64,000 nucleotides of DNA from Paracamarosporium sp. OC-R06-R3 (Eukaryota > Ascomycota > Dothideomycetes > Pleosporales > Didymosphaeriaceae): the NCBI GenBank assembly GCA_019828545.1, contig JACVRA010000181.1, positions 1 through 64,000 on the forward strand. The letters run 5' to 3'. The stretch's first letter is position 1. Each line of letters begins with the position of its first letter. Position numbers and translations under genes: made by a program. This document shows, one piece after another, positions 18,691 to 62,985 of this stretch. The notes under the pieces were generated by a model that ran no database searches, was not told the DNA's origin, and worked only from the letters and a program-made list of their open reading frames with translations.

Positions 18691-21296
18691 TTCTTATTAC
18701 ATTATAAATTATTTCTTTTCTTATTAGACGATTCAAACAATGCCGGCCGCTTACGCTAAGGTATAAAAGTATAAAATCTAAGGAAATTATGCCATTTCTA
18801 ACTTAATTTCTAATACTTAGCTCTTTTAGCTTCTATAGCCCTAGGGGCTTCTTCTAACCTTTAAGTATATATAGTTCCTATAATCCATGTCGTATGGCTC
18901 ACCTAACCGTCTACATGCTTCTCCTTAACGCTATAATCTCGTTTAAATCCGCCGTACTTTAGATAAACACGAGATATAGCAATCACTGCGTACTAATAGT
19001 AAGTAATATTTAGGTGCGTCTATAAGTGTATCTACGCCTCTTCCTTTAATACGCGTATTAAACGTGCACTGTCCCAGGTGGCTATATTACTCTTTAACTA
19101 TAGGAAGGGTAGTGGTGGTGTCTTATCTGCCTACACAAGCGCATCTAGTTTTCTCCAAAATGGTAGGATAAACTATAGATAGTAAACAAGAAGTTTACTA
19201 ACTTCCTTTAGTAGATAATAGTAGATAATCTTTGTAGATCTAACAACGTTATAACCCTTATAGTATATAGTTACCGTGCTTACCAGACCATCTTTAATAA
19301 AGATGTTTCAATGGTGCCCATTTACTGTATTGTAGTAACGTAGACTAAGGATCTCTGTTCCTTAAGTAGGCTGGCCTGCAGTTATATGGACGAGTAGTAG
19401 GAGACGCTTAAGAAACAAATCAACCTTTAAGATGTACCTCTTTACCGCAGGTACTTTCCAAAGAACCTTCAAGTCTTTTTTACGCAGCTCCACGAATTTG
19501 GCGCGTAGCGTGTCTGATCCTAACACACGATCAAACATCCAGCGTCCTCCCTTTGGCAAAACACCCGCGTTCTAAGGATCCTTGCGGAAACTCCAACCTT
19601 TGGCGTTTTCCGTTGGATCGTCTCGCAAGTTGCGCAGTTTAAAGGCAGGGATCACGTCTCCCCTTTCTTCGTCGTTGTGTACCAGGAAAAGTCGCTCCAG
19701 CTCGGACTGCGCTAGGGCTACTTGCGTAGCAACGAACTTCTTCCAATCGGCCACATTTAGATCGAGCTGCTTGTAGGTGAGTCGCTCATGGTCGTCGGAC
19801 CAGTAGATGTACCCCAGACTCATTGAGCTATTCCTAATCTTCTTCCCGTAGGCACGCAACCAAAGCACCCAGTTGAACGGAGACCGGCTCCTATGGATCA
19901 TGAATCGTTCCCGCATCTCGTCAAGGGCATCTACCGGATGCTCGATCTTCCCGTCCTCTGCCATCATCACCGACATCTGGATTACGAGCATCTGCGAGAT
20001 CTTGACAAATGCAGACAGGTGCGTTGTGAAGTTACAAGCGTCTCGTAATATCTTTTTCTCCGGATCCACTGCCAGCGCTGCAAGGAAACCAACCGCTGTG
20101 CTCTCGAAAAGGTCGCCTTTCAACGTGTGATCGAGCAGGGAGATGCAGAATTGGAGGCAAGCCCTGTCGAGCCGGACCTCTAGTAGCTTCTGCATGGCTC
20201 CGTAACTGCTGTCATCATTTTCTCCTTGCTTTTGTTCTCGCTTTAGTAGGAGGAGCTCCTCGCCAATACTGATCATTCGATCAAGATGTCCAAGTTGCGA
20301 AGCTGTTAGACGGTGAGCGAGCTCGACGCGATTCTCCGGCCGAATCGTGCGGTATGCAAAACATATCATTCTCTTAAACACCAGCTTGTAATCCCGATAC
20401 GTCGAGTTACGTAACTTGGTCAACAGAGGCCGGTCAAACGCTCGTCGCCTCTGGATGAAACTGTTGATCCGCGCCTGGTCAAAGACGTTGACTTTGTCGT
20501 TTCGTATAGAGCTATGCGCTTCTTCAACAACGCGGTCTATGCTAGCCGAGAACTCGACGAGAAGCGGTTCTGATGCGGCGTTGGCAGGGCTCGCTAATTG
20601 AGCGACCTCGGCAAAGGAATGACCTTGGAGATACTTTGGCCATCGGGTCATCTCAAGCCAGGGTGAGACTTCTGTCGGTGCAGCATTGTCTAAGATCACG
20701 TCGTCTAGCCTGGTCGTCTCTTGGTCCCGCTTCGCCAATGCCTCGTTGACTTCCGCGCGTATGAAGTCCGCCTCACGTAGCTCCGCTGCCATTGCCTGGC
20801 GCCGCTGCGCTTCCTCCTCTTCTGCCCCTTCAGTAGGTGAGGCCACAGTGAAATACCCGCTTTTAGGTCCATGTACGAATAAACGCTGACAAGAAACCTC
20901 CTTCCACTGAGGCGCAGCTACCGCAGCGGCTTTGGGTGGGCGTCCTGGAGCACGTTTGTCCTCGACATGACAGTCGTTAAAATGTTTTGCTAGCACTCTT
21001 GGTGCTCTGCAGGTGTATATGCAGTCTGGACATGACAGGCCCTGGTGTATAGGGAGGTGCGGTAAGGCAAGCTGTCCAGCAGGCGGTAATTGGAAGCAGG
21101 CTGAGTCTGGGTCGACAGGAGACTTGAGCATAAGCTCTTCAACCAGTTGCGTCCGCGCAGCCTTCGAAGAGCCAAGAATTGGATGCTCAGCGTGCGAGCG
21201 CGTCAAGTGGGCCAGATAGTGCTTGGGCCTAACACCTATACCGCACGTAATACATATCCATGTCCGACAGTCTGTAATGTAGTAGAAAAGGTCCAT
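18690..21296 (-). pseudogene. DUF3505 protein with tyrosine recombinase-like C-terminus, 3' half RIP-damaged
   Basis: The frame opens at ATG 21,296 (MDLFYYITD). It has a first Cys/His finger (CITCGI...HLTRSH), a second (CPDCIY...HFNDCH), and the SCQRLF/GYF block typical of DUF3505 (OrsD-like) proteins. The frame is clean for 574 codons to TAG at 19,572-19,574, then continues in the same frame to TAA at 19,362-19,364. The second stop falls in the recombinase block (HITAGQPT then stop, where the relative at 9.77 kb has GGQPARG), so the first catalytic Arg is the lost codon. Beyond it, to about 18.69 kb, the frame still reads as recombinase (AVIAISR block near 18.97 kb, IGTIYT near 18.88 kb) but with six or more further stops. 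No RecQ domain follows. The recombinase call is inference; the DUF3505 call is firmer. It is a relative, not a copy, of the 7.0-11.8 kb gene. Confidence 0.85.
19572..21296 (-). CDS. Intact N-terminal portion of the DUF3505 gene (574 codons)
   Basis: This is the part of the damaged gene that still reads without a stop. ATG 21,296 is preferred because the frame upstream of it has no ATG, only a TTG. GC content and codon use here are normal, in contrast to the AT-rich remainder. The encoded product would hold both Cys/His fingers and the long helical middle region but none of the recombinase-like catalytic residues. If expressed, it could at most be a DNA- or protein-binding fragment. Confidence 0.65.
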   Translation of the reverse strand: MDLFYYITDCRTWICITCGIGVRPKHYLAHLTRSHAEHPILGSSKAARTQLVEELMLKSPVDPDSACFQLPPAGQLALPHLPIHQGLSCPDCIYTCRAPRVLAKHFNDCHVEDKRAPGRPPKAAAVAAPQWKEVSCQRLFVHGPKSGYFTVASPTEGAEEEEAQRRQAMAAELREADFIRAEVNEALAKRDQETTRLDDVILDNAAPTEVSPWLEMTRWPKYLQGHSFAEVAQLASPANAASEPLLVEFSASIDRVVEEAHSSIRNDKVNVFDQARINSFIQRRRAFDRPLLTKLRNSTYRDYKLVFKRMICFAYRTIRPENRVELAHRLTASQLGHLDRMISIGEELLLLKREQKQGENDDSSYGAMQKLLEVRLDRACLQFCISLLDHTLKGDLFESTAVGFLAALAVDPEKKILRDACNFTTHLSAFVKISQMLVIQMSVMMAEDGKIEHPVDALDEMRERFMIHRSRSPFNWVLWLRAYGKKIRNSSMSLGYIYWSDDHERLTYKQLDLNVADWKKFVATQVALAQSELERLFLVHNDEERGDVIPAFKLRNLRDDPTENAKGWSFRKDP

Positions 21297-21700
21297 GTTA
21301 ATGCACCAGCGGATATTCGCAGATAGAACGCCATAAGCTACTAAGTGCAAGCAGCTATATAAGAGACGACGCTTAATGCTAACATTTATAAAGAAGATGG
21401 CTGGGCTGCAATTTCCCCCTTACCCGTCACGTGCTCCCACACCCCATCTTGTAATAAGAAGCCTTGTAGATAGACGAGATATAAGCTAGGAGTCCAGTGG
21501 CAATAATACTCCTAGGGCAGTTCAACTGCTCTTAGGGTGACACCTCGTAGATACAGTGACTTTTGCCAAAATACGCCAGCTATTCTACTATGCACTAGGA
21601 ATAGATACCCGTGAAAGCTCGCGTAGCGTTTTGGTGAGGCGAGGCACGGACCAAGTCAAAAGCGAATCGTCACCAATCAGCGACCGAGAAAATGGAATGG
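21297..21700. other. Spacer upstream of the DUF3505 gene
   Basis: About 400 bp with no coding signal I can support. It should contain the promoter of the minus-strand DUF3505 gene; no motif stands out. Confidence 0.5.
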
Positions 21701-28028: not shown

Positions 28029-31018
28029 ATGTGGCTCCTCCATTATGACGCGCTGAGTAGACTGATCTTGACAGACTTTCGCGGCAAGCCGATCCCGCCC
28101 TACGCTATTCTATCGCATTGATGGAGCGACTCTGAGACCCTCATCGAAGACGTATTGAACGGAAACTATAAAGAAAAAGAAGAAGGCTTTAAAAAGCTAC
28201 AGTTCTGTGCTAAACAGGCGGCTCAGGACGGGCTGCAGTACTTCTAGATCAACACATACTGCATTAACAGATAGGACAACAACGAGCGCTCAAAGGCGAT
28301 CAACTCGATGTTCGAGTGGTACCAGAACGCGGCCTGATGTTATGTCTTCTTGTCAGACGTGTCGGCCGCATACAGCGACTAGGAGGCGTCGTTCCGGAAG
28401 AGCGAATGGTTCACTCAAGGATGGACGCTCCAAGAGTTCTTGACGTCTCTATGCCTACGACGTATGGAGAAGGAAAAGAGAGCGCATTAAGAAGATTGCA
28501 GGCTGAAGTCGAGGGAGCTGGCAGCGCACCATCGATCATTCCATTCTCACAAAACCCGTCTTTCGTGGGCCGCGAACTACAGCTTGTAGAGCTAGAAGCG
28601 AAGCTCTTCAGCAATGAGCAGACCACCACGCTAGCAATTGTTGGCCCTAGTGGAATAGGCAAATCACAGCTCGCGCTCGAGGCTGCCCACAGAACAAAGC
28701 AGAACAGCAGAAGCTGCTCGGTTTTCTGGATGGACGTGAGCGATATAGACAGCCTCTACCGGTCTTACGCAAGCGTTGCGCAGAAGCTCAGTATTCCTAG
28801 TTGTGACGATGACTAGGCAGATATAAAGCAGGTTGTAAAACGCTGTATGGCAGCAATAAGTGCGCGACAGTGTTTGCTGATCTACGACAACGTAGAGAGC
28901 ACCACTCTACGGCCTAGCGGCTCGTCTATGACACAAGCTGTAGACTTAGTCGACTTTCTACCGCACTCTAAGCTATGTTCTGTCATCTTTACAACTACAG
29001 AGAGCAATACAGCTGAAGCGCTTGCTCCACAGAACGTCACAGCGTTACATGAGCTGACGCCAGACACGGCGTTAAGGATGCTGCAAAGCCGCTTGATAAC
29101 GCCGCTTTTGAACGCTAAACAGCAGGATGCTATGTACTTGTTAGAAGAGCTATCGTATCTGCCTCTAGCGATCGCGCAAGCAGCAGCGTGCATGAACACT
29201 AGTGGTATGACAGTGCAGCAGTACCAAGCACAGCTAGTCGAGCACAAAGAAGCAGCTCTCAAGTACAGCGATGACTCATCTGAAGGCGAGCAGCGGGAAT
29301 CTGGTCTAAGAAAGACTGTAGCTGCTACACTGTCTCTCTCTATGAGCCAAGTGCGCTCTAGCAACGCGGCTGTAGCAGACTATCTCTGTCTAGCTGCGTG
29401 CGTCGATTAAAAGGATATCTTGCTTGATCTTCTAGAGGCAGCATTGCCGCAGGCCCGTGAAGATGCTATCAGATTACTTGATAGGTATGCGCTCGTCACT
29501 AGGCGACCTGCTGAGTCAGCACTTGATATTCATCGACTCGTCCACTATGCGTTACGAAAGAGGCTGCAGGAAGAGGGAAGACTCCAAGAATAGACTCAAA
29601 GCACAATCACACAGCTACTCCAGGTGTTCCCAAACCACAATTATAGTAACAGAAGTAAATGGAGGCGACTGCTTCCGCATGCACGGTATGTTCTATCGGA
29701 TACGCAAAGGGATAACAACAAGGAGAGATTGGATCTTGCACAGAAGTGTGGCTTGGCTCTGTACAGTGATGGCCAGTATAAAGGAGCCGAAGAGCTGTTT
29801 GTGCAGGTGATGCAAACGATGAAGAAAGTGCTTGGTAACGAGCATCCTAACACGCTGACCAGTATAAACAACCTAGCGTTGACGTACAGCAATCAAGGGC
29901 GATGGAAAGAGGCCGAGGAGCTACAGGTGCAAGTGATACAGACGAGGAAGAGAGTGCTTAGCAACAAGCATCCTTCTACGTTGACCAGTATGAACAACCT
30001 AGCGTTGACGTACAGCGATCAAGGGCGATGGAAAGAGGCCGAAGAGCTACAGGTGCAGGTAATGCAGACGAGGAAGAGAGCGCTTAGTGACAAGCATCCT
30101 TCTACGCTAACTAGCATGGCCAACCTAGCGTCGACGTACAGCGATCAAGGGCGATGGAAAGAGGCCGAAGAGCTACAGGTGCAGGTAATGCAGACAAGGA
30201 AGAGAGTGCTTAGTGACAAGCATCCTTCTACGCTGACCAGCATGAACAACCTAGCGTCGACGTACAGGAACCAAGGGCGGTAGAAAGAGGCCGAGGAGCT
30301 ACAGGTGCAAGTGATGCAGACGAGGAAGAGAGTGCTTGGTGACAAGCATCCTTCTACGTTGACCAGCATGGCCAACCTGGCGTCGACGTACAGGAATCAA
30401 GGCCGGTGGAAAGAGGCCGAAGAGCTGGACGTGCAAGTGATGCAGACGATGAAGAGAGTGCTTGGCGACGAGCATCCTTCTACGCTGACTAGCATGAACA
30501 ACCTAGCGTTGACGTACAAGAACCAAGGGCGATGGAAAGAGGCCAAAGAGCTGGACGTACAAGTGATGCAGACGATGAAGAGAGTGCTTGGTAACGAGCA
30601 TCCTGACACCCTGACCAGCATGGCTAACCTGGCGTCGACGTACAGGAACCAAGGGCGGTGGAAAGAGGCCGAAGAGCTACAGGTGCAAGTGATGCAGACG
30701 AGGAAGAGAGTACTTAGCGACAAGCATCCTAACACGCTGACCAGTATGAATAATTTAGCGTTGACGTACAGCGATCAAGGGCGATGGAAAGAGGCCGAAG
30801 AGCTACAGGTGCAAGTAATGCAGACGAGGAAGAAAGTGCTTGGCGACGAGCATCCTGACACGCTGACCAGCATGCACAATCTTGCTTTCACGCTGCAGGT
30901 ACAAGCTCATCATGACGAGGCTTTTGCGTTGATGGAAAGATGCTCTCAGCTGCGCAAGCAGGTTCTTGGTGAGCAACACCCTAATACACAGTTGTCGCTT
31001 AACACGCTAAGCAACTAG
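28029..31018 (+). pseudogene. HET-NB-ARC-TPR (NLR-type STAND) gene, decayed
   Basis: From ATG 28,029 the frame starts MWLLHYDALSRLI and reads a HET domain (PPYAILSH, EGFKKLQFCAKQAAQDGLQY, INTYCINR, EWFTQGWTLQEF). Stops at 28,119, 28,245, 28,272, 28,335 and 28,380 interrupt it. Near 28,432 the HET domain is cut short and joins, out of frame, to its own distal end (LDVSMPTTYGEGKESALRRL), which suggests an internal deletion. The second frame then carries FVGRELQL, a P-loop VGPSGIGKSQLAL near 28,640, a Walker-B-like CLLIYDNVE at 28,867, the LSYLPLAIAQAA block near 29.15 kb and about ten 42-residue TPRs, ending at 31,018. In that frame stops occur at 28,814, 29,408, 29,591 and 30,281. HET-NLR proteins trigger fungal cell death on non-self recognition. 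This copy cannot make a full product. Confidence 0.88.
29795..31000 (+). repeat. Array of 126-bp units encoding 42-residue tetratricopeptide repeats
   Basis: Nine strong units plus a divergent last one, each with the pattern VLGDxHPxTLTSMxNLAxTYxxQGRWKEAEEL in pieces, repeat every 126 bp. Units are close to identical at the DNA level; the variable positions cluster in the G/S-D/N-E/K triplet and in the SMNN/SMAN and YSDQ/YRNQ pairs. High internal identity is typical of fungal NLR repeat domains kept alike by recombination. One Trp codon has become TAG at 30,281-30,283. Confidence 0.92.
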
Positions 31019-39255: not shown

Positions 39256-42200
39256 TTAGTCCGTTGTGCCCCATACCTTCCACTCCGACATGATAAGCTT
39301 GGCTAGCTTCTGGTGTATAATACTTTTGGGATGCATAGACTTGTATAGGCCATTCTTAGTAAGGAACGACAGGTCTCGACCTGCTATGTCTGGATACTTC
39401 TCGCCATCTACCTTGACATCAACCGGGTCGCTGCTTCCAGCCTGCGCAACTGCCTGGGCCCACACGCAATCCCAGAGATTGTCATAGTAGCCGCTCCACG
39501 ACTCACACTCGGAGCCTGCGACGTCCCGCTTGGTCAAGTCGACCTTTGTGCCGTCGTTATCTCGGGGATTCAGCTCATGGCCCGCCTCAGTGATGTCGTC
39601 CGAGTACGGGACGAAGAAATAGATGTCTTCGTTGCTGAGGAGCTTGCCGTCATCACCCTTGTCACAGAAGCGATAGCCGTCGAATAGGGGTTCCATGTCG
39701 ATAAACTTGACGCGCTTGAACGGGTATAGGGCTTGCACCTCCTCGATAGCTAGTTGGATCTGCTTGTTCATGGCCCGAACAGCTTGATTGAGTTCGACGC
39801 GGATGGACCTTGTCAGGTAGGGTACGTGCTTGTTGAGGACAGAGCCTTCCTCAACCGGCGTAATGGTCTGCTTGTCACAGTTCTCGTCGGCAGCTCCGAA
39901 CCCAGACTGGTCCTCGTCGTTAAAGAAAGAGGCATATCCAGTCACTATAAGCGTGAAGTACTGGTAATCGACGGCGTCAAGCACGGCGCGGTAAGTCGAG
40001 ACCAGCTTAGGTCGCATGTCTACGATGGCTAATTCGGCGTCGGCCATGATTTTGTTACACGTGTTCATACCGAAAAATAGGCATCGGATAGCGACTTCTG
40101 CAAACTGAGCATCGTTTCCCCCGATGGAGAGCGTTGCCATGCCGAGCTGAGAGCCGCCGATCTGGTCCTTGAGAATAGATATCTGCGACGGACGGCCATG
40201 GGAGCCTTCTGTCAGCACATTGTCGATCTTATCGCCTGTGCAAGCGAGAAAATCGAAATTCTTGTCACCCAGGTTGGTGGTCCAGAAACTGTGACCGTAG
40301 GCATTGACAGTAGTAAAGCACTCGTAACCGGCCTGTGCATCCCACTTGTTTTCGGCCTGGCTACCCGCGCCGATTCCTGCGGCGTAGCTATCACCCAGGG
40401 AAACGAACGTTGGGAAATGAGGTAGATCGTAGTAGACGCCGCCTACAGTGTCCGGTGGGGGGGCAGATCCGCCGCCACCACCGCCACCGCCACCTCCTCC
40501 TCCAGATGATGGGGGTACGGGAAGGTTGGGATCCTTGACGGGATTCTCATCATCTTGGCTTCCGCCGACCGAGCAGTCATTGAACCAGGTCCAGGCCTCG
40601 TTAGTCTGAGGATTTACCTGGACCATATCAGCCACGCCAAGACCGCCCAGGTTTGGGAAGTGAAGGTTGGGTCCGTAGCCGGGTCCTAGATAGCGCTTGC
40701 CGACACCATTCCAGGTCATCGCGCTGCCTGATGCTGGAGTAAAGCCAGCCTATAATTAAGAAAAGAATCAGCGACCCCGAACTATAGCAGGCAAGGCAAA
40801 GAGAGGATCTCACATTGAGGTTCACAGATGTGTCGCCATTGAACTTTTCAATGAACAGGAAGTCGTCCAGCCCGTCACCATCGACATCGGCCCATCGCAG
40901 ATTCGCTCGGTCCTTTCCTTCTGACCTCTTGACCTGGCCCAGGCTTACCATTCCCTTGTCTTCGGTGTTGAGCCAGCCATCCGCACGACCATCGGGCTCG
41001 ATGCACAGGTAGTCGATACGTTTATCGTCGTCGAGGTGGGCGAAGCGGACGCCAAGATCATACAATCCCGGACCCCAGCCCTGGGTGCATGTCACGCCGT
41101 CAGACATCTGGCCCATAGCGGTGAATGAGTAGCCTCCGGCGGAGGACCATTCGTTTCGCCACACTTCCACGGCGCCGTTATCACGGTTCACGCTGAGAAT
41201 ATCGCATTTTCCGTCGCCGTCCCAATCGCCGAGGTGAATGCTCTTGCGGTCGCGATACGTTTGCACAACCTCGCCCATTACATTCCATAGTGGCGTTGTG
41301 TCCCAAAGGCCGTTACGGTGCATGTTCTCGTAAATGGAGATCTCGCCTGTGCTCTTCACCCATACCATGTCGTCGGCGCCGAGTCCGCGCATGTCGCAGA
41401 ATCGTGTACCATCACCTTTGAGCTTGGTGCCGCCCCTGCCTGTATTCTCCCAGATCTTGAAGCGGTCAAATTGATTGTTGCCGGTTTTCTCACGGTAGAT
41501 GTACACATAGTCAGCCCGATTGCTACCAAAGATGCGGGCGAAGCGGATTCGATCCCGGGCGCCAGCGACGCCCATGCCCCCGTGGCCCGACTGTGCTTTG
41601 ACCCACGTTGGGATCAGATTCTTTCCCATGCCACGCTGGTTGATGTAAATAACGGTCGACCCGTCGTCGTTCACGTACACCCAGTCAGCGCGGAAATCGC
41701 CATTGATGTCAACGAGTTGTACGCCAGCAATGTCGCCCATCTACCACGCACGTGTTTGGTTAGCAATTAGACATGTTCGCGTTTGCACACAAAGAAGGAA
41801 CTACACAGAGCCGCAAGGGATGACTCACGCCTTTTCCCGTGAAAACGATCTGGCCATCGGGTCCCATCTCCTGCCAGTATTCCGGGTTGCCGCCTATTCC
41901 GCCGTTTCGCCAGCAACGTATATCGCCATTGGCGCCCACAACACAGTAATCGATACGACCATCCCCGTCGATGTCACCCAGCCTCACATTAGCCTGCGAA
42001 TAGCCTTTGGGCACGGAGAAGACCAGGCCGATGTAGGTGAAGAGGGGTGAAGGGCCGCCATTGTTGATGGAGACATACATGTTGCCTTCGGCGCCGATGC
42101 AAATGAAGTCATCGAGTCCATCACCATTCACGTCGCCCCAGTGGACCCCCTTGGCTTTGCAATCGTTCTTCACGTCGATGATCTCTCCACCGACAAAGTC

Positions 42201-43388
42201 GCCGTTGCCCTGATTGAGAATCATGTCGAAGTAGCGGAGACTGCCGTCACTGCCGACGACCTGGCGGACGCTTTCCTCGATGGCCATCTCGCGGTAGCCA
42301 CCATGGACGTTGACAAGCTGGGCGAACCATCTGCGCTGGTGCGAGTCCTCGGTATCGGAGCCGTACGCGAGTTGGTTGAAGGTGCCACGCGAGCTGCTGG
42401 CATGGATATAGGGGCCGTCGTCGAGCCCGGAGCCGGCCTGCGTCTTGACCACACCGCGCTGGTTGCCCGAGCCGTATTCCTTGAGGCAGGAGTTGCCGCC
42501 TACATCATCGTACGGTGTGGTGGCCGGTCTGGTGACGACGTTCCGCGACAGGGCTGCGTAGATGGCGCGTTCCCAGACAGCAGCCATCTTGCGATAGCCC
42601 TCCTGGGTGGGATGTGTCTTGTCGGTCAGATCGCTTTCGGTGAGCCAGCCCGTGTTCATGTCGGCCAGCAGCAGATGCTCGTTGTTCATGGACTTCACGA
42701 GATCGCGGTACCTCTGGTTGAGCGTCGTCACACGTGCATTGGCATCGGCCCACTTGTGCGGCACCAGCGTGGACAGGATCACGGTGGTGCCGGGGATCTT
42801 GCTCAGCAGCTTTTCCACGAGGCTCTTCATGCGCTCGTGGGCCGTGTCGAAGTCAACATTGCGCTCGCAGTCGTTGGTGCCGGCGTTGAGGAGCACAATG
42901 TTGGGCAGGAAGGGGATGGAGAGGTCTGCGGCGGCCGTGACCTCGGAGATGAGGAAGCCTGAGGTGCCTTCGTGGTTGTTGTCGTGCATGGTGCCGTCGT
43001 GCTTGGTGCCGACCATGTTGACGGGCCACCCGGTGAAGCGGAGGGCATCGCGCAGCGACTTGCGGTAGCCATTGCCACCGTAGGGCTCAGAGGTGAGGCC
43101 CTTTGTGATGGAGGCGCCGAGCGGCAGGATGCGGAGGAAGAAGGGGTCGTCTGGCGGCGTGACAGGGTCTGCACTGTCTCCGCCCCCACCGCCCCCACCG
43201 CCGCCGTTCCACTCGGGCGGAAACTCGTCGTCGCCCTGGTCTCCGATGCCGTTGAAAAAATCGCCGACCAGGCACGTGTCGGCCCGTCCGCTTAGCACCC
43301 GCCGTACGGCAAGGCTGGCGAGCGTCGGGACCGAGTGGACGCCCGCAAAGAGCGCCAGAGCAGCGCCCGCGTACAAGCTCACCCGCAT
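39256..43388 (-). CDS. Secreted protein with two SGNH hydrolase domains and central VCBS/FG-GAP-like repeats (1326 aa)
   Basis: Exons 43,388-41,829, 41,740-40,814 and 40,749-39,256 are joined over introns of 88 and 64 bp, both GT-AG and in phase. A signal peptide (MRVSLYAGAALALFAGVHS) is followed by a nine-Gly linker. The first SGNH domain has LPLGASITKG (block I Ser at about residue 93), NAGTND (block III) and DKTHP (block V Asp/His); it looks like a CE3-type carbohydrate esterase. The middle carries repeated D-x-[DN]-x-D-G-x-x-D units (GDVNGDGLDDF, GDIDGDGRIDY, DINGDFRADW, GDWDGDGKCDI, ADVDGDGLDDF), the calcium-binding pattern of VCBS/FG-GAP repeats. After a twelve-Gly linker comes a second SGNH domain with SLGDSYAAG, SIGGND and SMHP, closer to lipase/esterases of the SEST type. 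It probably removes acyl groups from extracellular polymers or lipids. Both active sites look complete. Confidence 0.85.
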
Positions 43389-43745
43389 GGTTGGTCTTGC
43401 AAAAATCAGAAAAGAGTGTGGCGGCTTGCAAAGCACAACATGTGATCTGCCAACAGACGAAAAGAGTGGCTGTCGGAGCGGTAGGCCATGTGGTCCAGCC
43501 GTCTTTAAACCTCTCTCTCTCATGCCATGGCTGCAACGACTCCCAGCCGACAGCAGCAAAGGAGAGTTGCTCCACCCGGGCCACAAGGATGACACGGTGT
43601 AGCAAAGGCGATACTCGGTCGATTGGACGGTGAACCCACGCTAAAGTAGCCTGCTCCTGCTTGGCTTGGACCATTTATTTGTAGCCTACGGTAGTACAAT
43701 TTCCGATCTGCTTCTCTCAGCAACCTACTACTCTCCTCTGATGAC
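43389..43745. promoter_or_regulatory. Shared promoter region between two divergent genes
   Basis: 357 bp separate the start codons of the double SGNH gene (minus) and the F-box-like gene (plus). A pyrimidine-rich stretch (ctctctctc) near 43,510 lies on the plus strand. No binding site can be named with confidence. Confidence 0.5.
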
Positions 43746-47988: not shown

Positions 47989-48913
47989 ATGGCTGGAAAA
48001 GAAAAATACTACAACTATACTCCTTCGAAGGGAGCGGCCGTAGTCAGCCTGGTGATATTTGGGGCTCTGTTCGCATACCATGCCTTCAGGCTTTTCAGGA
48101 CGCGAACATGGTTCTGTATCCCCTTCGCCATTGGTTCCATATGTAAAGTACTCATGACTTCCTTCTTGGACCACTCTGACACTCTCCAGTTGAATTAATC
48201 GGCTACGGATGTCGCGTATACGGTAATTCCAAGCCAGACAGCAAACTGCCATACATTCTACAAGCGTTGCTCATCCTCCTCGCACCTATCCTGTTCGCCG
48301 CCTCTGTATATATGTTCCTGAGCCGTATAATTAAAGCAACGGGCCAGCTCGCAAGCTCTATCATCCGTCCAACCCGGCTCACGAAGATCTTTGTGGGTGG
48401 CGACGTACTCTGCTTCCTCATCCAGGCGGTCGGTGCAGCTATCTTAGCTGGTTCGGACTCAAAGAAGAGTTCTAATCTGGGCAAGGCCATCATCCTCGTT
48501 GGATTGTTTCTTCAGATTGCTATATTCGGATTCTTTATTGTTGTGGGAATCGTGTTCCATATCAGGGCTGCACGGGTCTCTGGCGGGAAGTTGGTCGCGG
48601 CCGACTTCAACTGGGAGAGATATCTGCATCAGTTGTATTTGGTTAGCGTTCTGATTACCATCCGGAACGCTTTCCGTGTTATCGAATACGCTATGGGTGG
48701 TATGCGACATCTCAACCCCGACGAACCAAGTTCCAGCGCTGACAAGATTCAGAAGACGGATATCTCCTAGCGACCGAATGGCCTATCTATGTGTTCGACG
48801 CATTACTTATGGCCATCGTGCTAGTCATTTGCTGCAAATGGTATGTGCGTGACATTATCACTGTACATGTAGTTGCGCAGCAGGGTCAAGAAGACTTCGA
48901 GATGGGGAACTAG
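47989..48913 (+). CDS. RTA1-like seven-transmembrane protein (274 aa)
   Basis: Exons 47,989-48,142, 48,190-48,699 and 48,753-48,913, with introns of 47 and 53 bp. The second splice (gtatgc...attcag) converts an early stop into the normal C-terminus (EDGYLLATEWPIYVFDALLM). Hydrophobic segments include AAVVSLVIFGALFAYHAF, ALLILLAPILFAASVYMFL, VGGDVLCFLIQAVGAAIL and AIILVGLFLQIAIFGFFIVV. The spaced blocks YILQALLILLAP, LTKIFVGGDVLCFLIQ and FRVIEYAMGEDGYL are diagnostic for RTA1/RTM1/RSB1 proteins, linked to lipid flipping and resistance to amphiphilic toxins in yeasts. ATG 47,989 is the first in frame; upstream only a GTG exists. The next gene is a Zn2Cys6 regulator, converging on it. Confidence 0.9.
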
Positions 48914-49443
48914 GACCTTCTGGAGCCCAAACACCAGGCTAGACGGCACTGGGACAATGACTGACAAGCATAAAACGCTCGTCGCTCGACATGGTAGCAG
49001 TTGAGGATCGGCTAAGTCGTTGTGGGATAGTCTGAAGTACTCTGTAGCCGTCATATTCTCTTGTTGTTTTCATTCCTGTCATTTTGATTTGGTCAATGTC
49101 CCTCGCGTATGCTCTTTGTTAGATGTTTTCTGTTTGATGGTGGGGTCTGTCATGGCTTTAGAAATGTAGATGAATTAGCTTAAGATTTAGCAATGAATAT
49201 TCTAGTGAGCTAAAGGAACCGCGATCTTAGAGGAATATCATGGTAGACATGCCCTTGAGAATTCATCCTCCGCTGCCAAATGGGTCTTTGGCCAAAGGTT
49301 GCATATTCGCGCTGGATTCGTCATCCTTTCTAGTGTCGGCTCCAGGGCTATTGCAATTGTGAACGAACTTGAAATCCTGCGTTTTGTATTAGGAAGGCGA
49401 TGCTTAGAATAGAGAGATAAGATGTTTCGTAATAAGCACTTAC
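48914..49443. other. Intergenic between convergent genes
   Basis: About 530 bp between the 3' ends of the RTA1 and Zn2Cys6 genes, expected to hold both polyadenylation regions. No other gene is supported. Confidence 0.5.
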
Positions 49444-50562
49444 TCATTGATGCAGACCAGCGTTTTCTCGGCACCATTTCGTAATGCTCATCCATTCATC
49501 CCCCCTTGGGTCAAGTGCACCCGCGATCTCGTCTACTAAACGCCGTCCGGAAAACTCAGCCCACCACATGCCCTCGGATCGGTCCAGAAGTACACCCCAC
49601 TGCATAAAGATAGCAAGTGCAAGGCTATTACCGTTCTTCAAGGCCTCCAGAAATGCAGGCTTGACCGCGGCTATCCAGGGAACTACCAACCTTCCCCTGA
49701 GAGCGGCTTGCTCCAGCGTGTCGATGGCGTGGTCAAAGACAGGACGCATTTGACCGCTGCTCTGCGCACTGATCAAATGACGCATCTCTTCTCGAGGAAA
49801 GCAGAGCGACGGTGTGGAAAGCCTGATCTGAGCGCCGAGGATGCAGCTGAGTGGGCCTTCGCTGAGCCATTCCCGACTCACGTCGAGAATGGATTTGATG
49901 CCGTTCAGAAAGTCGACCAGTCTCAGCATCGCCTCCGCAGTGGATTGGTTTTGCTGCTTGCATTTGCTCTGAAGTAAAGGCGATACAATGGCGCATACCA
50001 TAATAAGCATCGAGGAGATGAAGGCAGCATCACAATTTTCCCGAGAAAGAGCATCGAGAGAACTCCGCAGGCCGCTTACAGCTTGGTGCTGATAGTGCAG
50101 TGCTGCACTCAGGTACTCGTCAGTAATTTTGATGTCATCAGTCTGACTCGCGATTTGTAGCGATGTCAGCGCAAAAACGGCTTCCATAAGATATTCGTAT
50201 CGCAAGGCTTCTTGGATGATATAGTCTCGTAGAGCATCGCCGACCTGTTTTGTGAAGCTGTTGCACGTACTCGAACACCAATGGTGCATGAGTTTCAATT
50301 CCAAGAGCCTTCTTGTCCTCTGCGTAACTTCGTCATGAGTTGATTTGCTTGCTCCGTGGGATCGTCTCGGCCTCACACTAGTAGCTGTGCCGGCCAGAGT
50401 TGGTTCTATGATATTCTGGCCTGGTGGCATGGGATAATAACACACTTCCTGTCGCCGAACACATACTGAGCAGCAAGGGAGCGTTTCGTCGCATTTTACA
50501 CGTCGTATGCGACACTGATTGCAGCCGTAGCGGGATTTCTTGTGTGGACGCTTGATTGGCAT
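49444..50562 (-). CDS. Zn2Cys6 transcription factor, Upc2-like type (372 aa)
   Basis: A single ORF. Residues 14-41 form the binuclear zinc cluster CNQCRIRRVKC...CSVCVRRQEVC, spaced C-x2-C-x6-C-x6-C-x2-C-x6-C, with a basic N-terminus (KRPHKKSRYG) for DNA contact. From residue 85 (LLELKLMHHWC) the sequence has the helical middle region seen in Upc2/ECM22-type and many secondary-metabolism regulators (EYLMEAVFALTSLQIA, ALHYQHQAVSGLRSSL). At 372 aa it is on the short side. The stop is followed at once by gtaagt, so a spliced longer form is possible but not needed. Its targets are unknown; the nearby RTA1 gene is a possible one. Confidence 0.88.
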   Translation of the reverse strand: MPIKRPHKKSRYGCNQCRIRRVKCDETLPCCSVCVRRQEVCYYPMPPGQNIIEPTLAGTATSVRPRRSHGASKSTHDEVTQRTRRLLELKLMHHWCSSTCNSFTKQVGDALRDYIIQEALRYEYLMEAVFALTSLQIASQTDDIKITDEYLSAALHYQHQAVSGLRSSLDALSRENCDAAFISSMLIMVCAIVSPLLQSKCKQQNQSTAEAMLRLVDFLNGIKSILDVSREWLSEGPLSCILGAQIRLSTPSLCFPREEMRHLISAQSSGQMRPVFDHAIDTLEQAALRGRLVVPWIAAVKPAFLEALKNGNSLALAIFMQWGVLLDRSEGMWWAEFSGRRLVDEIAGALDPRGDEWMSITKWCRENAGLHQ

Positions 50563-53411: not shown

Positions 53412-56400
53412 TTAGGTGGAAGGCATGAGTGTCATTGGGGTGTTTTTAGGAGTCACAGTGAAGACTGTGTACTTTCCAGTGATACCCTTAATATCAATAG
53501 TTATTATCACTATCCCTGAATAGTCACGAAGGATTGACTTACCTCCCATTTTCCCTTAACATATACTTCATAAGGTTTAGCTTCGTGCAAGCTGAGAAGG
53601 GAATTGCTCAGGTAAGGTTTATTATTCTCCATAGCAAGCCTCCACTATAAAAAGCAATCAGAAATTGTCCGAACGGCATGACACAACACGAGATAAGCCT
53701 ACCTCCCATGGATCCGTGTTAGCTTGGGCGACGTCGAATAGCTCATCGGTGCGCGGAAATTCGAAGTCTTGAAGGTTGCGATCGCCCGTCTTAAACGCGT
53801 CCTTCAGCGCGCCCGTCCCTTTGTTGTTTCTGTAGCTACCCCCTCCACCCCAGATAGTGTAACCGCCTTGGAACCTTAGCCTCGGAACGACGCGGACTTT
53901 GGCTGTGTAAGGTAAGGAGGTCCGCTGATTGAAGATCATCTGACAAGTACAGAATGATTAGCACGCGCTTCAGATCACTCAGAAATAATGTTACGCTTTC
54001 TCACCTGATTGAGGACGTTTATGCGCCCTGCCGGAAGCGTGATTTGACCGGTGGTGTTGGTCTCGAAGGTGGTCGTTACCTGCGTCGAGTCCGTTTTTTC
54101 GATCTTGGCGTTGAATGTGGCCTTGACAGTATTTTCCGATTCGAGAATGGGGTTGTTCTTCCCTATGGTCTGTTTGGACTGTAATTCTAGCCCAACGGCT
54201 GCCCCAACGAGTGTCGTATTGGTGATGGTTTCGGTGTCTGTAGCTTTGGTACCGACGGTAGCAGTTGTGCTGTAACAGTCGTTAAATCTGAATATTCCAG
54301 TGCGCAAACTTGACACTTACGCGACGCTTGACATCGGCAACTCTACACTATTAAGCTAGAATTGTGTGAGTTTAAGGCTTGAACAGGTGTTTGCTATGTA
54401 AGATAATACCTTCCATGGCTTCAGCTCTGTGATGATGGGAATGCCAAAGACGATCTCGCTAACTTCGACACTGCTCATAGATTATGGTCAGTAATTATCA
54501 CCTTACCCCCTTGGATATTTCACGCTTACGTCCAATCAAAAAACTCCAGGTTGGTCGGATGCTCCCACCACTATTGGCCCTCAGTCAGCCTGCTAATACC
54601 TATGGGAAGAGTTGACACTTGCATAATCATTCTTTTTGTCGGGTACCCGATTATTCGGCACATGGAATGTACGGCCCATCTGGCTTGCTGGAATGGGTGA
54701 AGTGAATTTAGTAATCAACTCAAGACCAGCACGGCTATCTAGGTACTTACAGTCTTTCCCCGAATCTTCTCTGATTTGAATGTCGTCATACGAGAAATAA
54801 GAGGAGCTAATGTATGACATATTGAGGCAAAAGGCCACTTCAACGCACGAGGGCAAGATGTTTTTAAGGACCTGGCTTGTATTAGCTGCCACGCATCTAT
54901 GAGTATCAAGTCACATACATAAAGTTGGATGTCCTTGGTAGCTATGCCATTGCCTTCGAGACTCGGGACTCTATATTTTGTATGTTTGACACACTCCCGC
55001 AAGGCGTCGATGACACCTGCCTTGAATGAGTCCCACCTCTAGAATTCGGATTAGCTTGTTATTTTCATTTGCCGTCCAGCGCCGCCAACTCACAGTTTTA
55101 GCGTCCGTCCCATCCCCGACCGCCTTGTCTTTGAAATCCTTCTCGACTTCAGCGAGTTTCTTATCAAGAGCGACCTCTGTGTCGTACTGGCCCTCCATGG
55201 TCTAAAATTGTTAATGGCGACTATCTATTGGGAAGCTTTCGAACGGGGGTTAGTCTACCTTGTCGATGAGCGGAACCGTGACGCTAGTGAGGAGCGCCTT
55301 GTTGTAGTTCGATACAATTTCGTCGTATAGCCCTAATTTGTTTGCCTTCTCCATGATGAAAACCTCCTCGATCTTACTAGCGTACGTCGATATGATGATG
55401 CTGGAGACCTCCCCGTTGGCCTGAAGAGAGTAGTTCTTAAGGAGAAGGGTGAAGGTGTTACGACCAACCTTTGCCGTAGCATCGCATTGGAGTGTGATAG
55501 TCTCTCTCTTTGTTGTCGATTGCTTGACCTCGAGAGGGATTGCATCGATTTCGGTGGTGTATTGTGCCAAGATGCCTGGGACCTTTTGGCTCAACTCCCC
55601 GCTGAGAAAAGTTGAAAAATCCGCGCAAGCTGGAACAGTCCAGTCAATATCAACCCATACTATTCGATGCAATGAAGGATCAGTCACATACCCTTATTAT
55701 AGACGGCATTGAACGAACTCTTCGTGCTGGAGACGAAGGAATCAAACTGCAGGAGGAGAGCCGACGAAACTATATCCGCAACGTTGTTAGTGGAAAGGAA
55801 GGTATCTAGTTGATTCTAGTAGTTACGTTAGAGCCATTTGAGTCTAGTGGTGGAGCACGACTCACCCGGAGTGTTGCAGGGTTCACAATAGCGTCATACG
55901 AGATTGGCTCGACGCGCGGCCGCAAAGCGTCCTGCAACTGCATGCTGTATCTCTCTTTGAGCTCAGATAGAAGCTCTGAGGCGTGTTGTCTCACTTCCGC
56001 GTCGTTCTCTTCCCATTGTGCCTGTTGCATCTTGGCGGCACTCTGAGCTGACGATGCGAAGTCTTGCTTCTGTGAGGCTTTATCGTTTCCCTTGTATTCT
56101 GCTTCCAACTTTTTCTCAAAAGCCATTTGCGCGTCAAGTAGCCGGGAGGAGACTCCATTACTGTAAATCTTGGTATCGCCAATTTTGGTGTCAGCACCAA
56201 GCTTGATCAATGCCTCTGTAAGGGTCCGGAGCTGCGTCTGCTTGGCATCTAGAACCCAAACGCTCCATGCGTTATCCACTTTAGCCTGTAAACTGACCTT
56301 CTGGAGATCGAAAGCATCCTGAAGCGTCTTAGCATAGCCGTCTGGGAGAGCCTTAGGGTCATAAGTCTCGCCCTTGGCTTTGTAGCCCCCAATCGCTTGG

Positions 56401-58000
56401 TTTGAAATAGTAGCGAATCGATCCTGGATGTCATTGGTGGATAATAACAACTGCTCCTCTGGAAATTGAGCTTTCACCTCGATGTTGATTGATGCAATCG
56501 CGGCGATCAGCGCAGTAGACAACAAAGCCCTGAGGCGCGTAAGGTTTGACTCAAGGAGCGAAGCTTTCATCGGCTGAGCAGCAGCTGTTGCTTGATCTTG
56601 AACCTTCTTGATCATGGTTGGCGACATGTACGACAAGGTCGAACTTAGATTCGCCTGTAGCAAGATGATATCCTTATCTAGTAATGCTGACAACGCTTGC
56701 GTGGGTTTTGGCTCTTCCTTCAAAAGGCCATCGATGTTGATTGTCAGGCTGTTTGTGAATGCGGTAAGCGCCTTATTCATGGCGGCATTCTGGGCAGATT
56801 CGAAAATGCTTCCGACATTAAGCGGTTCAGCATTATTGATTGCATCCGCGAAAATAGGCATAAAATCAGCAATGGAGCCGCCGGTGAGTTGAGAGCCAAC
56901 AGAAAGCGTCCTTGGCTGAACAAGGGCCTTAGACAGTCCGGTTCGAAGGAACTTGAAGTATTCGAGATAGGAGTCTTCAAAGTCCTCCAACAAAATGAAT
57001 GGCTTCGTGCCATCGGAAAGTCCATCACGCGCTGACTGCTTGAGCTTATCAGGAAGTATGAAGACCTGAACGGACTCAAAGAATGAGCGAAGCATCTGGC
57101 GAATGTTATTCCGATTGTTCACGGCAACGGAACTGCCCTTCTCATCATTCAATAGAAGCCTCTTGATCGAGTCCGCGGTGTCCTTCGCATTAAGACGGAA
57201 TTGGTTGAAGATGATGAAGAGATGGCCGAACAGAGGTTCAGAGGCGGCTGTATCTGTTCCATCGGCGGGATTAGAGGCCGGTGTCTCCGCAGAGCGCAGA
57301 CGCCGACCTGCTTCCGCCATCATACCCAGTTGAGAAAGAATCTCGTCGGTAAGGAGACCACCAGTACGATTGTATATGACCACACGTGATGTTACTAAAG
57401 CTGGACTGAACAGACCCATGTCATAGGAGCTACCGACCGCCCCTTGACCTTCGGTGTCGCAAAAGGATATCTTGATGCTCGAATTGGTTGCCTATTTGGG
57501 CATATACTTAGTTAATGTCTACAAGTCTCCATGTCATCTGAGCTTACCTCTACTATGGGTTCGTTCTCAAGAGCGGAGAACTGCGGCAAGCTGAGAAGTC
57601 TAGTGGGCACATAGATACCTTTCGTGAACGTCTCCATGCCGGGATACGTGGCAAAGAGCTCAGTCTTCTTACAACCAGCCAACAGGTTCATGAGGGTACT
57701 CTTGCCAGAGCGTGCGGGACCCATGACGCTGATTAGGTTCAGAGGGTCTTTGATAAGACCCACGAACTTGTTAGCAGGGTCCTCGATAACTCTCAGAGTG
57801 TATTGCTCCTCTCCACTGGGATTGTCTGCAGATTCCGAGACTAGCACCATATCCAACCACCTCATGGCGACTGAAGTCCCATCATCGGAGATAGCGGCGA
57901 GGTTTGTGGCTGAAAGTGCACCTAGAAAAACAATTCATGAGCATAGCGACAGTCACAAGGGACGATGATAGTAAAACAAAGACGCACCGCCAACGCTCAT
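53412..58000 (-). CDS. GBP-like large GTPase fused to an aerolysin-like beta-pore-forming domain (predicted 16 exons, 1246 aa)
   Basis: Predicted exons (minus): 58,000-57,988; 57,921-57,548; 57,491-55,866; 55,815-55,692; 55,629-55,259; 55,201-55,094; 55,038-54,919; 54,871-54,751; 54,687-54,623; 54,570-54,530; 54,473-54,410; 54,355-54,321; 54,269-54,005; 53,939-53,703; 53,644-53,543; 53,486-53,412. All phases agree. The P-loop GPARSGKSTLMNLL (residues 72-85) and switch DTEGQG (141-146) fit the guanylate-binding-protein/RHD3 class; a later LTGGSIADFMPIFADAINN block matches the GBP helical domain. The middle is helical. The last 260 or so residues are beta-strand- and Ser/Thr-rich (TDTETITNTTLVGA, TQVTTTFETNTTGQITL, PYTAKVRV, PYEVYVKGKWEG), the pattern of aerolysin/ETX-MTX2 pore formers. 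There is no signal peptide, so it should act inside the cell, perhaps at membranes. A split into two genes is the main alternative. Confidence 0.75.
54571..54622 (-). other. Predicted GC-AG intron linking the GTPase and pore-forming parts
   Basis: 52 bp. The donor reads tat|GCAAGT, the standard form of the rare GC-AG class, and the acceptor is ccaatag with a ctgac branch site 11 bp before it. Any GT donor here would put the next exon out of phase or into a stop. Confidence 0.6.
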
Positions 58001-60359: not shown

Positions 60360-62286
60360 TTAGACAGCCCGGACTTCGGCCACTGCGCCCGACCGCTTCG
60401 AAGTGCCCTTACCAATCTGTTCCTGCCCTTTCTCAGACCCAGAATCATCCACTGAAGCCCCTTGAATAACATTGACGTCAATTTTTGTGCGCTCTTGATC
60501 GAGTATCTCCGCCTGCGTCTTCGCATATGACTCCCATGGGTGTTTCTGGGCTTCAAACATAGCGGGATCCTTAAAGAGATACGATAAGGTTATATAGATT
60601 CCTCCGCCCATGAAGACTGCAAAAAGCCAGCCAACCTTATAGAGGTTGATCCATCCGTCGGCAATGTTGGCTGTCTTATCAAATTGATAGGCGAGACCAG
60701 GACAGACGGGCCATACAGCCATGAAGTATGCGGCATAGGCTTTCCAGTTCCAACCTTTGTTGTACCAGTAGTCTGCGCGGTGTAAGACTCATATATTATA
60801 ACTCGAGAGTGACACTCTACCTTTGTTTGAACTGTACATGGATAGTACATCGACATTTCCTCTCCGCAAAAGATAGTCGCAGATTGCAATTGCAGGAATT
60901 GCCCCCAAGAATAAGCTGTAACCTGTCAAAAAGGTGAGATATGATTTGGCTGTTGCGAGGATGTGCCATGGTTGGATAATGAATCCGACTGTAAGCCCGA
61001 AGATCATCCCGCGGTTGATGTTAAGGTACTTGGGCACCAAGCAAGCGGAGTCAGCTCCAAACGAAATTAGATTAGCGGACAGGTTCTTAATCTGTTCGGA
61101 GATTGCCATAACAGACGCAAACAAGAAGATGGCAAAGCGTACGCCTCCGCTGTAGTTGTGCGTCAAAATGGCGTCGCACATGTCCCATAGATTCCAGTAT
61201 GTCACGCCATATTTATATGCTAGTGCATTGGTGCCAAGGATACCAATCATGCACAAAAGAGTCTTCCAGAACACGATAGTAAGGAACTGAGACCAGCCCA
61301 CGCTACCGGGAGTTTTGGCATACCGAGCGATGTCCGGGTTTGAGGCAACCATAGGCGAAAATTGGCCGATGATGCTTTGTACGGCGAAAACAAACGCCCA
61401 GCCTAGCGAAGATCCATGAAGTACCTCGGGGGTAGCATCATACGACGTGGCGCCTTTGCTGCCGACAATCATGCAGTAAATGAAAATGCCTATAGTGCAT
61501 GGAGGAACCACCAGTGCTTTGATGGTCCAGAGATGCCGCATCTTGTGGATTTTGAGGGCCATGGCTGGGTACGAGCAGATCCAGACAATAAAGCATGCAA
61601 CGAATTTGCGTGTTGTGATGTGAGCGCTCTCAGGTAGGGTGTTGGCCATCTTATACCACGAATCGCCGAAGACACATCTATATGAAGCATGTCAGCGAAC
61701 GATTGTTATGTCAAGTAGAGAAATCTCACCTTAATGCGACATCGAGAAACAAGGAGCTTTGATACACTGTCACACCAATCCAGAGGATTGCCACTACTGC
61801 GCGGGTAAAAACTGGAAATAGCGAACCATACAATCCTAAAAAAGATGTCTTAACAGTAAGTTCTCAAATACATTCCAAAACGATGAACTTACCAAATGAA
61901 ACGCGCTGCAGTGTTGGAAATCCGATGTGATATACAGCAGATTGCCTGGAATTGAAAGAGGTAGCAATACCACTTATGACAGAGCCCACGAAACATGCAA
62001 GTACTGCTTGCCACCAATTGATTTTCAGACTCAGCAATGAAGAGGCAGCAGCCCAACCACCAGACGTAAAACTATACGAGAACCATAGAGCGAAGTAGCT
62101 GAACCAAGTCCACGTGCGTTCCGAAGGTGGGGTAGGGTCCATATGCGCGTTCGACCAAATGAAGCCATGGTTAGAGGGCGCAAAATCGGATGACTGGACC
62201 TCGATGGCGTTCTTGAAACCTTCTTTGGTGGTGAGCGCGACTCTGGCGTTGTCGCGGAATTGCCTAAAGCTAGGCTTCTTCACCAT
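60360..62286 (-). CDS. NCS1-family nucleobase/allantoin permease (589 aa)
   Basis: Exons 62,286-61,893, 61,835-61,730, 61,677-60,821 and 60,772-60,360, with introns of 57, 52 and 48 bp, all GT-AG and in phase. Typical NCS1 blocks are present: a charged N-terminus, RTWTWFSYFALWFSYSF, SLKINWWQAVLACFVGS, GIATSFNSRQ, FIVWICSYPAMAL, FSPMVASNPDIARYAKTP, ISEQIKNLSANLISFGAD, INRGMIFGLTVGFIIQPW and ATAKSYLTFLTGYSLFLG. Relatives (Fur4, Dal4, Fui1) import uracil, allantoin, uridine or thiamine at the plasma membrane by proton symport. The blocks do not settle the substrate. ATG 62,286 is the first in frame and gives normal family length. The C-terminus is a charged cytosolic tail. Confidence 0.92.
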
Positions 62287-62985
62287 GATGGCGACCTGTT
62301 CGAAGTACTCTCTGGTGAAGGGTCTGAGCTTGCTTGCTATAGCGGTATGAAACACGACAGATTTGACACGGTAACACCTTGATATCCGTTGTAAACAGGA
62401 TGGTTATGTAGAGGATGGCGAGCTCCCTGCTTAGCCAGATAGAATGCTAGAAAATCGTTATCTGCCAAGCCCTTATCACAGTCAAATTGTGCCACATAGC
62501 TTGCACAGCTCCAGGCATCTGGAAACCTGGGGTACCGAATCCGCCAAGCGCTGCAAATGATCGGCACTGTGGGGTTTGCCAATCAGACAAGATAGGAGCC
62601 GGATTATACGGTGGTCAGATTCAGTATCGCCCCCAAGCAGGTCGATAGTGGAGAGAATGAAAGACCTCGGCCGAAGCGTTATCATCACTTTTGTCGGGAC
62701 GGATCGTAATCGAGGATACGTCGGCCGACGCTAAACCATTAGCGGCATAGTTTGGATTCTGAGAACCGATATCAACACTACTGCCACAAGAGTTGAAGGC
62801 TGCGTTGGAGAGGGCAACTAATGGATATCTAGATGCGTGAAGTAAGCAGAATTTTGTTGGCGCAGCTCCCTACATCCCGGTCTTCATTGCTCGGAGTTGC
62901 CTCCTTTGGTAAATAGCGCCCGTTCCTCTGCACAATAGCTACGGGCGCAGGCCTTAGGGTTAACATTTCAACCTCAAAAATGTTA
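62287..62985. other. Intergenic, upstream region of the permease gene
   Basis: About 700 bp with no supported gene. An 81-codon minus-strand ORF (62,337-62,582) overlaps the expected promoter and has no familiar motif. Confidence 0.5.

Follow-up and report, generated by a model that had tools for sequence, protein, structure and literature searches.

In animal guanylate-binding proteins (GBPs), nucleotide binding drives dimerisation and membrane coating; they hydrolyse GTP to GDP and GMP and are induced by interferon or infection. Aerolysin modules that are brought together form a prepore, which becomes a beta-barrel. The lectin domain of proaerolysin targets the protein, and a C-terminal peptide restrains it until a protease removes that peptide. 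Animals use GBPs and pore formers in the same defence pathway, as separate proteins. In fungi, some HeLo-domain and NOD-like receptor (NLR)-like proteins link a membrane-damaging domain to a nucleotide switch. Here we analysed 64,000 nucleotides of Paracamarosporium sp. OC-R06-R3 (the window; positions 1 to 64,000 of contig JACVRA010000181.1) and confirm that this stretch carries a real, conserved and unusual gene, in which a GBP-like part is fused to an aerolysin-like part. Both halves are known separately, and the fusion belongs to the general kind that joins a nucleotide switch to a membrane-damaging domain.

Aerolysin-like domains of sac fungi also occur in Podospora Pa_5_2020 and Raffaelea RL4_JR_08480. 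According to the accessible portions of the two reports, the Podospora protein, which is induced about 18-fold in incompatibility, has a signal peptide, a jacalin-like lectin and LysM (PMC3689799), and the Raffaelea protein, a secreted one, is discussed together with a lectin domain (PMC7441637), all of this unlike the fusion; neither portion names a GTPase for these proteins (PMC3689799, PMC7441637). Fungal HeLo-domain cell-death and NLR-like proteins share with the fusion a cytosolic membrane-damaging domain, as far as the same Podospora source goes (PMC3689799). However, they use another nucleotidase and another pore former: in 17 relatives of the fusion protein, Pfam finds only GBP and Aerolysin at E 0.001. 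In the accessible text of a survey from 2011, aerolysin is found joined to lectin, crystallin and further partners, and a GTPase fusion does not occur there (PMC3110756). Among the papers listed in a literature search that was thin on subscription papers and preprints, we found no description of a GBP-aerolysin fusion. Databases carry automatic domain labels on some family members, so the sequences are public, while the papers searched seem to contain no description of the family.

The fusion gene, on the minus strand, begins with an ATG at 58000, comprises 16 exons and closes with a stop codon whose last nucleotide is 53412. An earlier note, made from the DNA letters alone, had drawn one frame from one ATG to one stop over 53412..58000; these coordinates held exactly and the exon number was the same. 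Exons 2-16, each translated apart, are free of stops. The coding length (exon lengths summed by hand) is 3738 nt including the stop, giving 1245 aa where the earlier numbering ran to 1246. The intron after exon 9 (exon end 54623) is of the GC-AG type.

We examined the unity of this frame with a family profile built from the 17 relatives, leaving the window gene out, against which window exons 2-16 were scored singly. Thirteen of the 15 exons match the profile, in order and without overlap, from position 6 to 1239. The matched intervals are 6-127, 128-668, 672-711, 713-835, 837-870, 872-910 and 913-944 in the first part and 976-988, 990-1009, 1023-1104, 1105-1183, 1184-1216 and 1217-1239 in the second, and the exon junctions coincide with the borders between successive intervals within a few residues. 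The weakest real matches reach 5.8 bits (exon 10) and 6.9 bits (exon 6), and the top score among 300 shuffled peptides made from the exons is 1.0 bit. Exons 9 (54623..54687, 21 aa) and 12 (54321..54355, 11 aa), expected at profile positions 945-975 and 1010-1022, gave no meaningful match and are placed by frame alone. Likewise, tblastn with five relatives is collinear with the window gene, with gaps at the short exons: pieces of the relative P0001 between residues 4 and 1238 fall over 57925-53421, residues 861-988 being without a match, and for P0030 the middle part is missing. The ordered match of 13 of 15 exons, combined with the collinear tblastn, strongly suggests that one conserved reading frame runs across the junction of the two parts. 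Merging of two adjacent genes into a chimaeric model would fit the unmatched exons 9 and 12 and the fact that the relatives, too, appear to be gene predictions. Yet the junction-spanning exons 6-8, 10 and 11 match the profile in order, and the same joined protein is recorded in many different species; we consider such a merger very improbable.

The N-terminal part resembles animal GBP1, GBP2 and GBP5. Exon 1 (57988..58000) holds the start codon in 13 nt and 4 residues, too short for scoring, and its phase agrees with exon 2. Exon 2 (57548..57921) encodes the N-terminus, with the P-loop GPARSGKST including the arginine-finger position and the switch I TKG (Pfam GBP E 6.8e-5; family profile 221 bits), and exon 3 (55866..57491) encodes the remaining GTPase domain, with DTEG and with FNQF near the G4 place, followed by the first helical blocks (Pfam GBP E 1.4e-8; family profile 733 bits). 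Both GBP matches are above the Pfam cut-off, and exon 3 matches GBP2 (E 2.6e-5) and GBP1 (E 2.7e-5) in the PDB. The GBP-type P-loop and DTEG switch noticed earlier are general in the family: GxxRxGKS with the arginine finger, TKG and DTEG occur in all 17 relatives and in the window gene. The helical blocks were found as well, a large G domain fold being followed by a helical middle region, which continues through exons 4 (55692..55815, 25.9 bits), 5 (55259..55629, 99 bits) and 6 (55094..55201). In contrast to GBP1, GBP2 and GBP5, which are prenylated there, the fusion has no C-terminal CaaX tail (no Cys at the fourth-last place in any of the 17 relatives, P0035 being cut short, nor in the window gene), and the aerolysin module replaces the GBP effector region. 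The atlastin/Sey1 fusion GTPases of the endoplasmic reticulum have a related fold; however, exon 2 is over the cut-off for GBP and far below it for RHD3 (11.5 vs 42.4 bits), and the genome has its own Sey1 gene. In a viral structure library, the two matches at E <0.001 were one atlastin-like and one GBP-named protein of giant viruses. We class the GBP-like part as a large nucleotidase of the dynamin superfamily.

The C-terminal part had been assigned to the aerolysin/ETX-MTX2 class. This assignment stands and can be narrowed to aerolysin proper (PF01117), the family of Aeromonas aerolysin, which 15 of the 17 relatives reach in Pfam at E 0.001 (P0001: E 6e-20, 72.2 bits vs a cut-off of 24.3) and P0032 and P0033 do not. 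Window exons 13 and 14, scanned singly, did not reach Pfam Aerolysin, and a PDB sequence search with exon 13 alone returned nothing. A PF01117 scan of the window genome found nothing, but its control gave no match anywhere either. As a query, P0039 finds exons of the aerolysin module in that genome. We call the window gene aerolysin-type because it matches relatives that reach PF01117, an identity assigned by way of those relatives.

As to position, the module had been put at residues 980-1246; its C-terminal place stands, but it starts earlier, near 895 in P0001 numbering. The PF01117 match starts at P0012 residue 796, which is P0001 residue 898 in the alignment. In the window gene, exon 7 (54919..55038; 13.2 bits, profile positions 872-910) holds the end of the helical region and the start of the module, which goes on in exons 8 (54751..54871, 14.3 bits), 10 (54530..54570) and 11 (54410..54470, 15.4 bits). 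Exon 13 (54005..54269, 48.6 bits) carries the pre-stem region, which is rich in Thr in places and has a putative amphipathic hairpin; its strongest stretch of alternation was reached by 2.65%, and its mean alternation by 1.55%, of 2000 shuffles. Exon 14 (53703..53939, 116.7 bits) holds the aerolysin core past the pre-stem, with a WGGGG loop, exon 15 (53543..53644, 26.6 bits) the C-terminal part of the module, and exon 16 (53412..53486, 22.7 bits) its final part and the stop.

The earlier note had also proposed structure prediction followed by a fold search. These returned a GBP-like fold, tied with atlastin, for the first part, and for the second the elongated beta fold of aerolysin domains 2-4, matched by a weak model; the match covers aerolysin chain residues about 95-420. 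Unlike Aeromonas aerolysin, the fusion has a GBP-like part in place of the N-terminal lectin domain, and there is little room for a C-terminal activation peptide. In P0001 and P0012 the Pfam Aerolysin match stops at 316-318 out of 365. Of 14 aerolysin structure rows, ten stop at chain position 418-420, where 7-9 residues of the model remain, one at 401 and three at 450-454. It seems that the C-terminal inhibitory peptide of proaerolysin is lacking.

A further difference from Aeromonas aerolysin concerns secretion. The lack of a signal peptide, claimed earlier, was borne out as far as a hydropathy scan goes, no dedicated predictor having been used: in seven relatives the N-terminus is not hydrophobic (maximal 19-residue value 1.04 in the first 45 residues), and the highest 19-residue value over the whole length is 1.47. 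With neither a signal peptide nor a membrane span in evidence, the fusion protein is probably cytosolic.

The same domain pair, for which a search in other fungi had been suggested, occurs in many of them. A database search with exons 1-8 returned 37 proteins, 19 from named organisms and 18 from metagenomes. The named carriers are Gaeumannomyces, a Dothideomycetes isolate, Sclerotinia, Monilinia, Botrytis, Echria, Elsinoe, Polychaeton, Colletotrichum and also Seirophora, Circinaria, Teloschistes and Xanthoria, which are lichen fungi. Taxonomy of four carrier species gave Sordariomycetes, Lecanoromycetes, Leotiomycetes and Dothideomycetes. A family tree of 31 rows was drawn from 39 proteins and the window, omitting P0026-P0029, P0031, P0034, P0035, P0037 and P0038; the window was represented by exon 3 only (44% of columns). 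It falls, without further resolution, in a group of 27 rows, nearest to P0001, and the tree has several long branches. The 12 metagenome rows that the tree includes, out of 18, all group with the six lichen-fungus rows. Separate trees of the two halves in 16 relatives have their well-supported groups in common and differ at weak forks, as expected if both halves travelled together since an old fusion. Searches with the C-terminal part (14 matches) and with the profile (34 matches) returned no other partner for either half, only this family; proteins under about 680 aa were not candidates in the former, so standalone aerolysins may exist. These family members include P0038 and P0039, seemingly gene models with too late a start.

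One copy of the fusion gene was found in the window genome. A second PF02263 match, at C24:353359, was ruled out as another copy: it is the Sey1 gene (C24, about 353.2-355.8 kb; RHD3_GTPase E 8.3e-67, Sey1_3HB E 1.8e-132), the sole other PF02263 match found there. A tblastn of exon 3 against a plasmid collection and a search of Rfam gave no match. The one weak PADLOC match, in P0001 (E 0.0075; none in P0030), was disregarded, and for exon 2 the best 25 of 47 NCBIfam families were mostly ABC-transporter and some GTPase models, far below their cut-offs; NCBIfam gave nothing for exons 3 and 14 and one match at E 0.092 for exon 13.

Starting from the layout, its conservation, the retained catalytic loops, the predicted folds (that of the aerolysin part from a weak model) and the apparent lack of a signal peptide, we infer how the protein might act beyond its architecture. 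Our preferred reading, to which we give a probability of about 0.5, is a GBP-like nucleotidase followed by a long helical arm and then by domains 2-4 of aerolysin, used cell-autonomously against an intruder or the fungus's own cell. Nucleotide binding and hydrolysis would dimerise the protein and gather it on an intracellular membrane, as animal GBPs do; crowding there would bring the aerolysin modules into a prepore, whose amphipathic hairpins would insert as a beta-barrel. Because the lectin domain and, seemingly, the C-terminal inhibitory peptide are lacking, the GTPase and helical arm would probably supply targeting and restraint in place of receptor binding and proteolysis. The membrane attacked could belong to an intruder or to the fungus. 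The likely use would be to destroy invaders within the hypha, or to bring about the death of the fungal cell in response to signals of non-self or infection. Such a fusion might enable a cell to perforate membranes on demand, and could be the nucleotide-gated membrane attack or cell-death device that the earlier note envisaged.

Several observations weigh against this reading. The fold, P-loop and DTEG are those of a GBP-type GTPase, but the (T/R)(L/V)RD guanine-binding motif is not: there is no RD among the 20 residues around its place in any of the 17 relatives, where FN[QR] stands instead. The exact register is unsure here because TLRD pairs with IFNQ in the hGBP1 alignment and with LFII, two residues shifted, in that of hGBP2. 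As the RD dipeptide near the G4 place is absent throughout, the protein may have a ligand other than GTP, and hydrolysis is putative. The aerolysin part comes from a weak model (mean predicted local distance difference test, pLDDT, 63.4; predicted template modelling score 0.35), with pLDDT <50 over residues 920-973, which include the putative pre-stem hairpin. In Foldseek this model reaches only low TM-scores against aerolysin (by target, 0.27-0.40 in the aerolysin rows). The tie in Z between the GBP and atlastin folds weighs in the same direction. Window exon 3 has, from residue 317, a hydropathy of 1.55 over 19 residues, which is near, but below, the usual threshold for a membrane span. A role in defence is suggested by analogy.

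Other functions would fit part of these data. In a membrane-shaping or membrane-binding GTPase, the aerolysin module would be a lipid- or glycan-binding platform that makes no pores. Domain 2 of bacterial aerolysin binds glycan, according to the accessible part of the survey (PMC3110756), the GBP and atlastin folds tie in Z, and the pre-stem, predicted with low confidence, is less conserved than the lobe after it (mean pairwise identity 0.46 vs 0.54). Nevertheless, the pre-stem region is kept, Thr-rich stretches and putative hairpin included, and we regard a platform of this kind as unlikely. We hold a stored cytoplasmic toxin, its aerolysin module acting in the gut of a fungus-eating animal and its GTPase serving folding, storage or restraint, to be slightly less likely still. 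Fungi do keep nematotoxic proteins in the cytoplasm, as the accessible part of one report describes (PMC10512399), and the apparent lack of a signal peptide agrees with this; however, 1245 residues with a kept catalytic centre would be costly for a passive toxin, and the relatives have no lectin domain in Pfam.

A broader form of the preferred reading, in which the fusion serves as a cell-autonomous membrane attacker, can be offered tentatively, with more doubt than confidence. It would make these proteins the founding family of a class of beta-barrel pore formers gated by nucleotide, in which a single cytosolic chain combines a GBP-like switch with its pore. They would have been retained from a time before the main classes of Pezizomycotina diverged, for cell-autonomous immunity or programmed death in hyphae and lichens. 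If true, fungi do in one chain what animals split between GBPs and gasdermins. The family would give fungi a directly testable single-protein membrane weapon, would place a protein of the dynamin superfamily among those known to carry pore formers, and raises the question of GBP-type cell-autonomous immunity in hyphae and lichen fungi.

The neighbours of the fusion gene, at 48180-50562 and 60789-62403, are an RTA1-like protein, a Zn2Cys6 transcription factor and a purine/cytosine-type permease, and we saw no link between these and the fusion gene. Farther away, an NB-ARC and TPR (NLR-like) gene lies at 28268-31018 (+) in four open stretches. It may be decayed or mis-read, because 28268-28816/28817-29410 and 29594-30283/30284-31018 abut at stops in one frame. 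An open reading frame at 19572-21419 (-) has an OrsD-type domain (PF12013, E 4.2e-17), and a run of large open reading frames at 39256-43640 (-) resembles a GDSL-type hydrolase with repeats, the one scanned giving a Pfam match below the cut-off. The contig start (1-8000), extremely AT-rich and full of short AT repeats, has 15-16% GC over its first 6 kb and 24% over the next 2 kb, and is perhaps repeat-decayed DNA.
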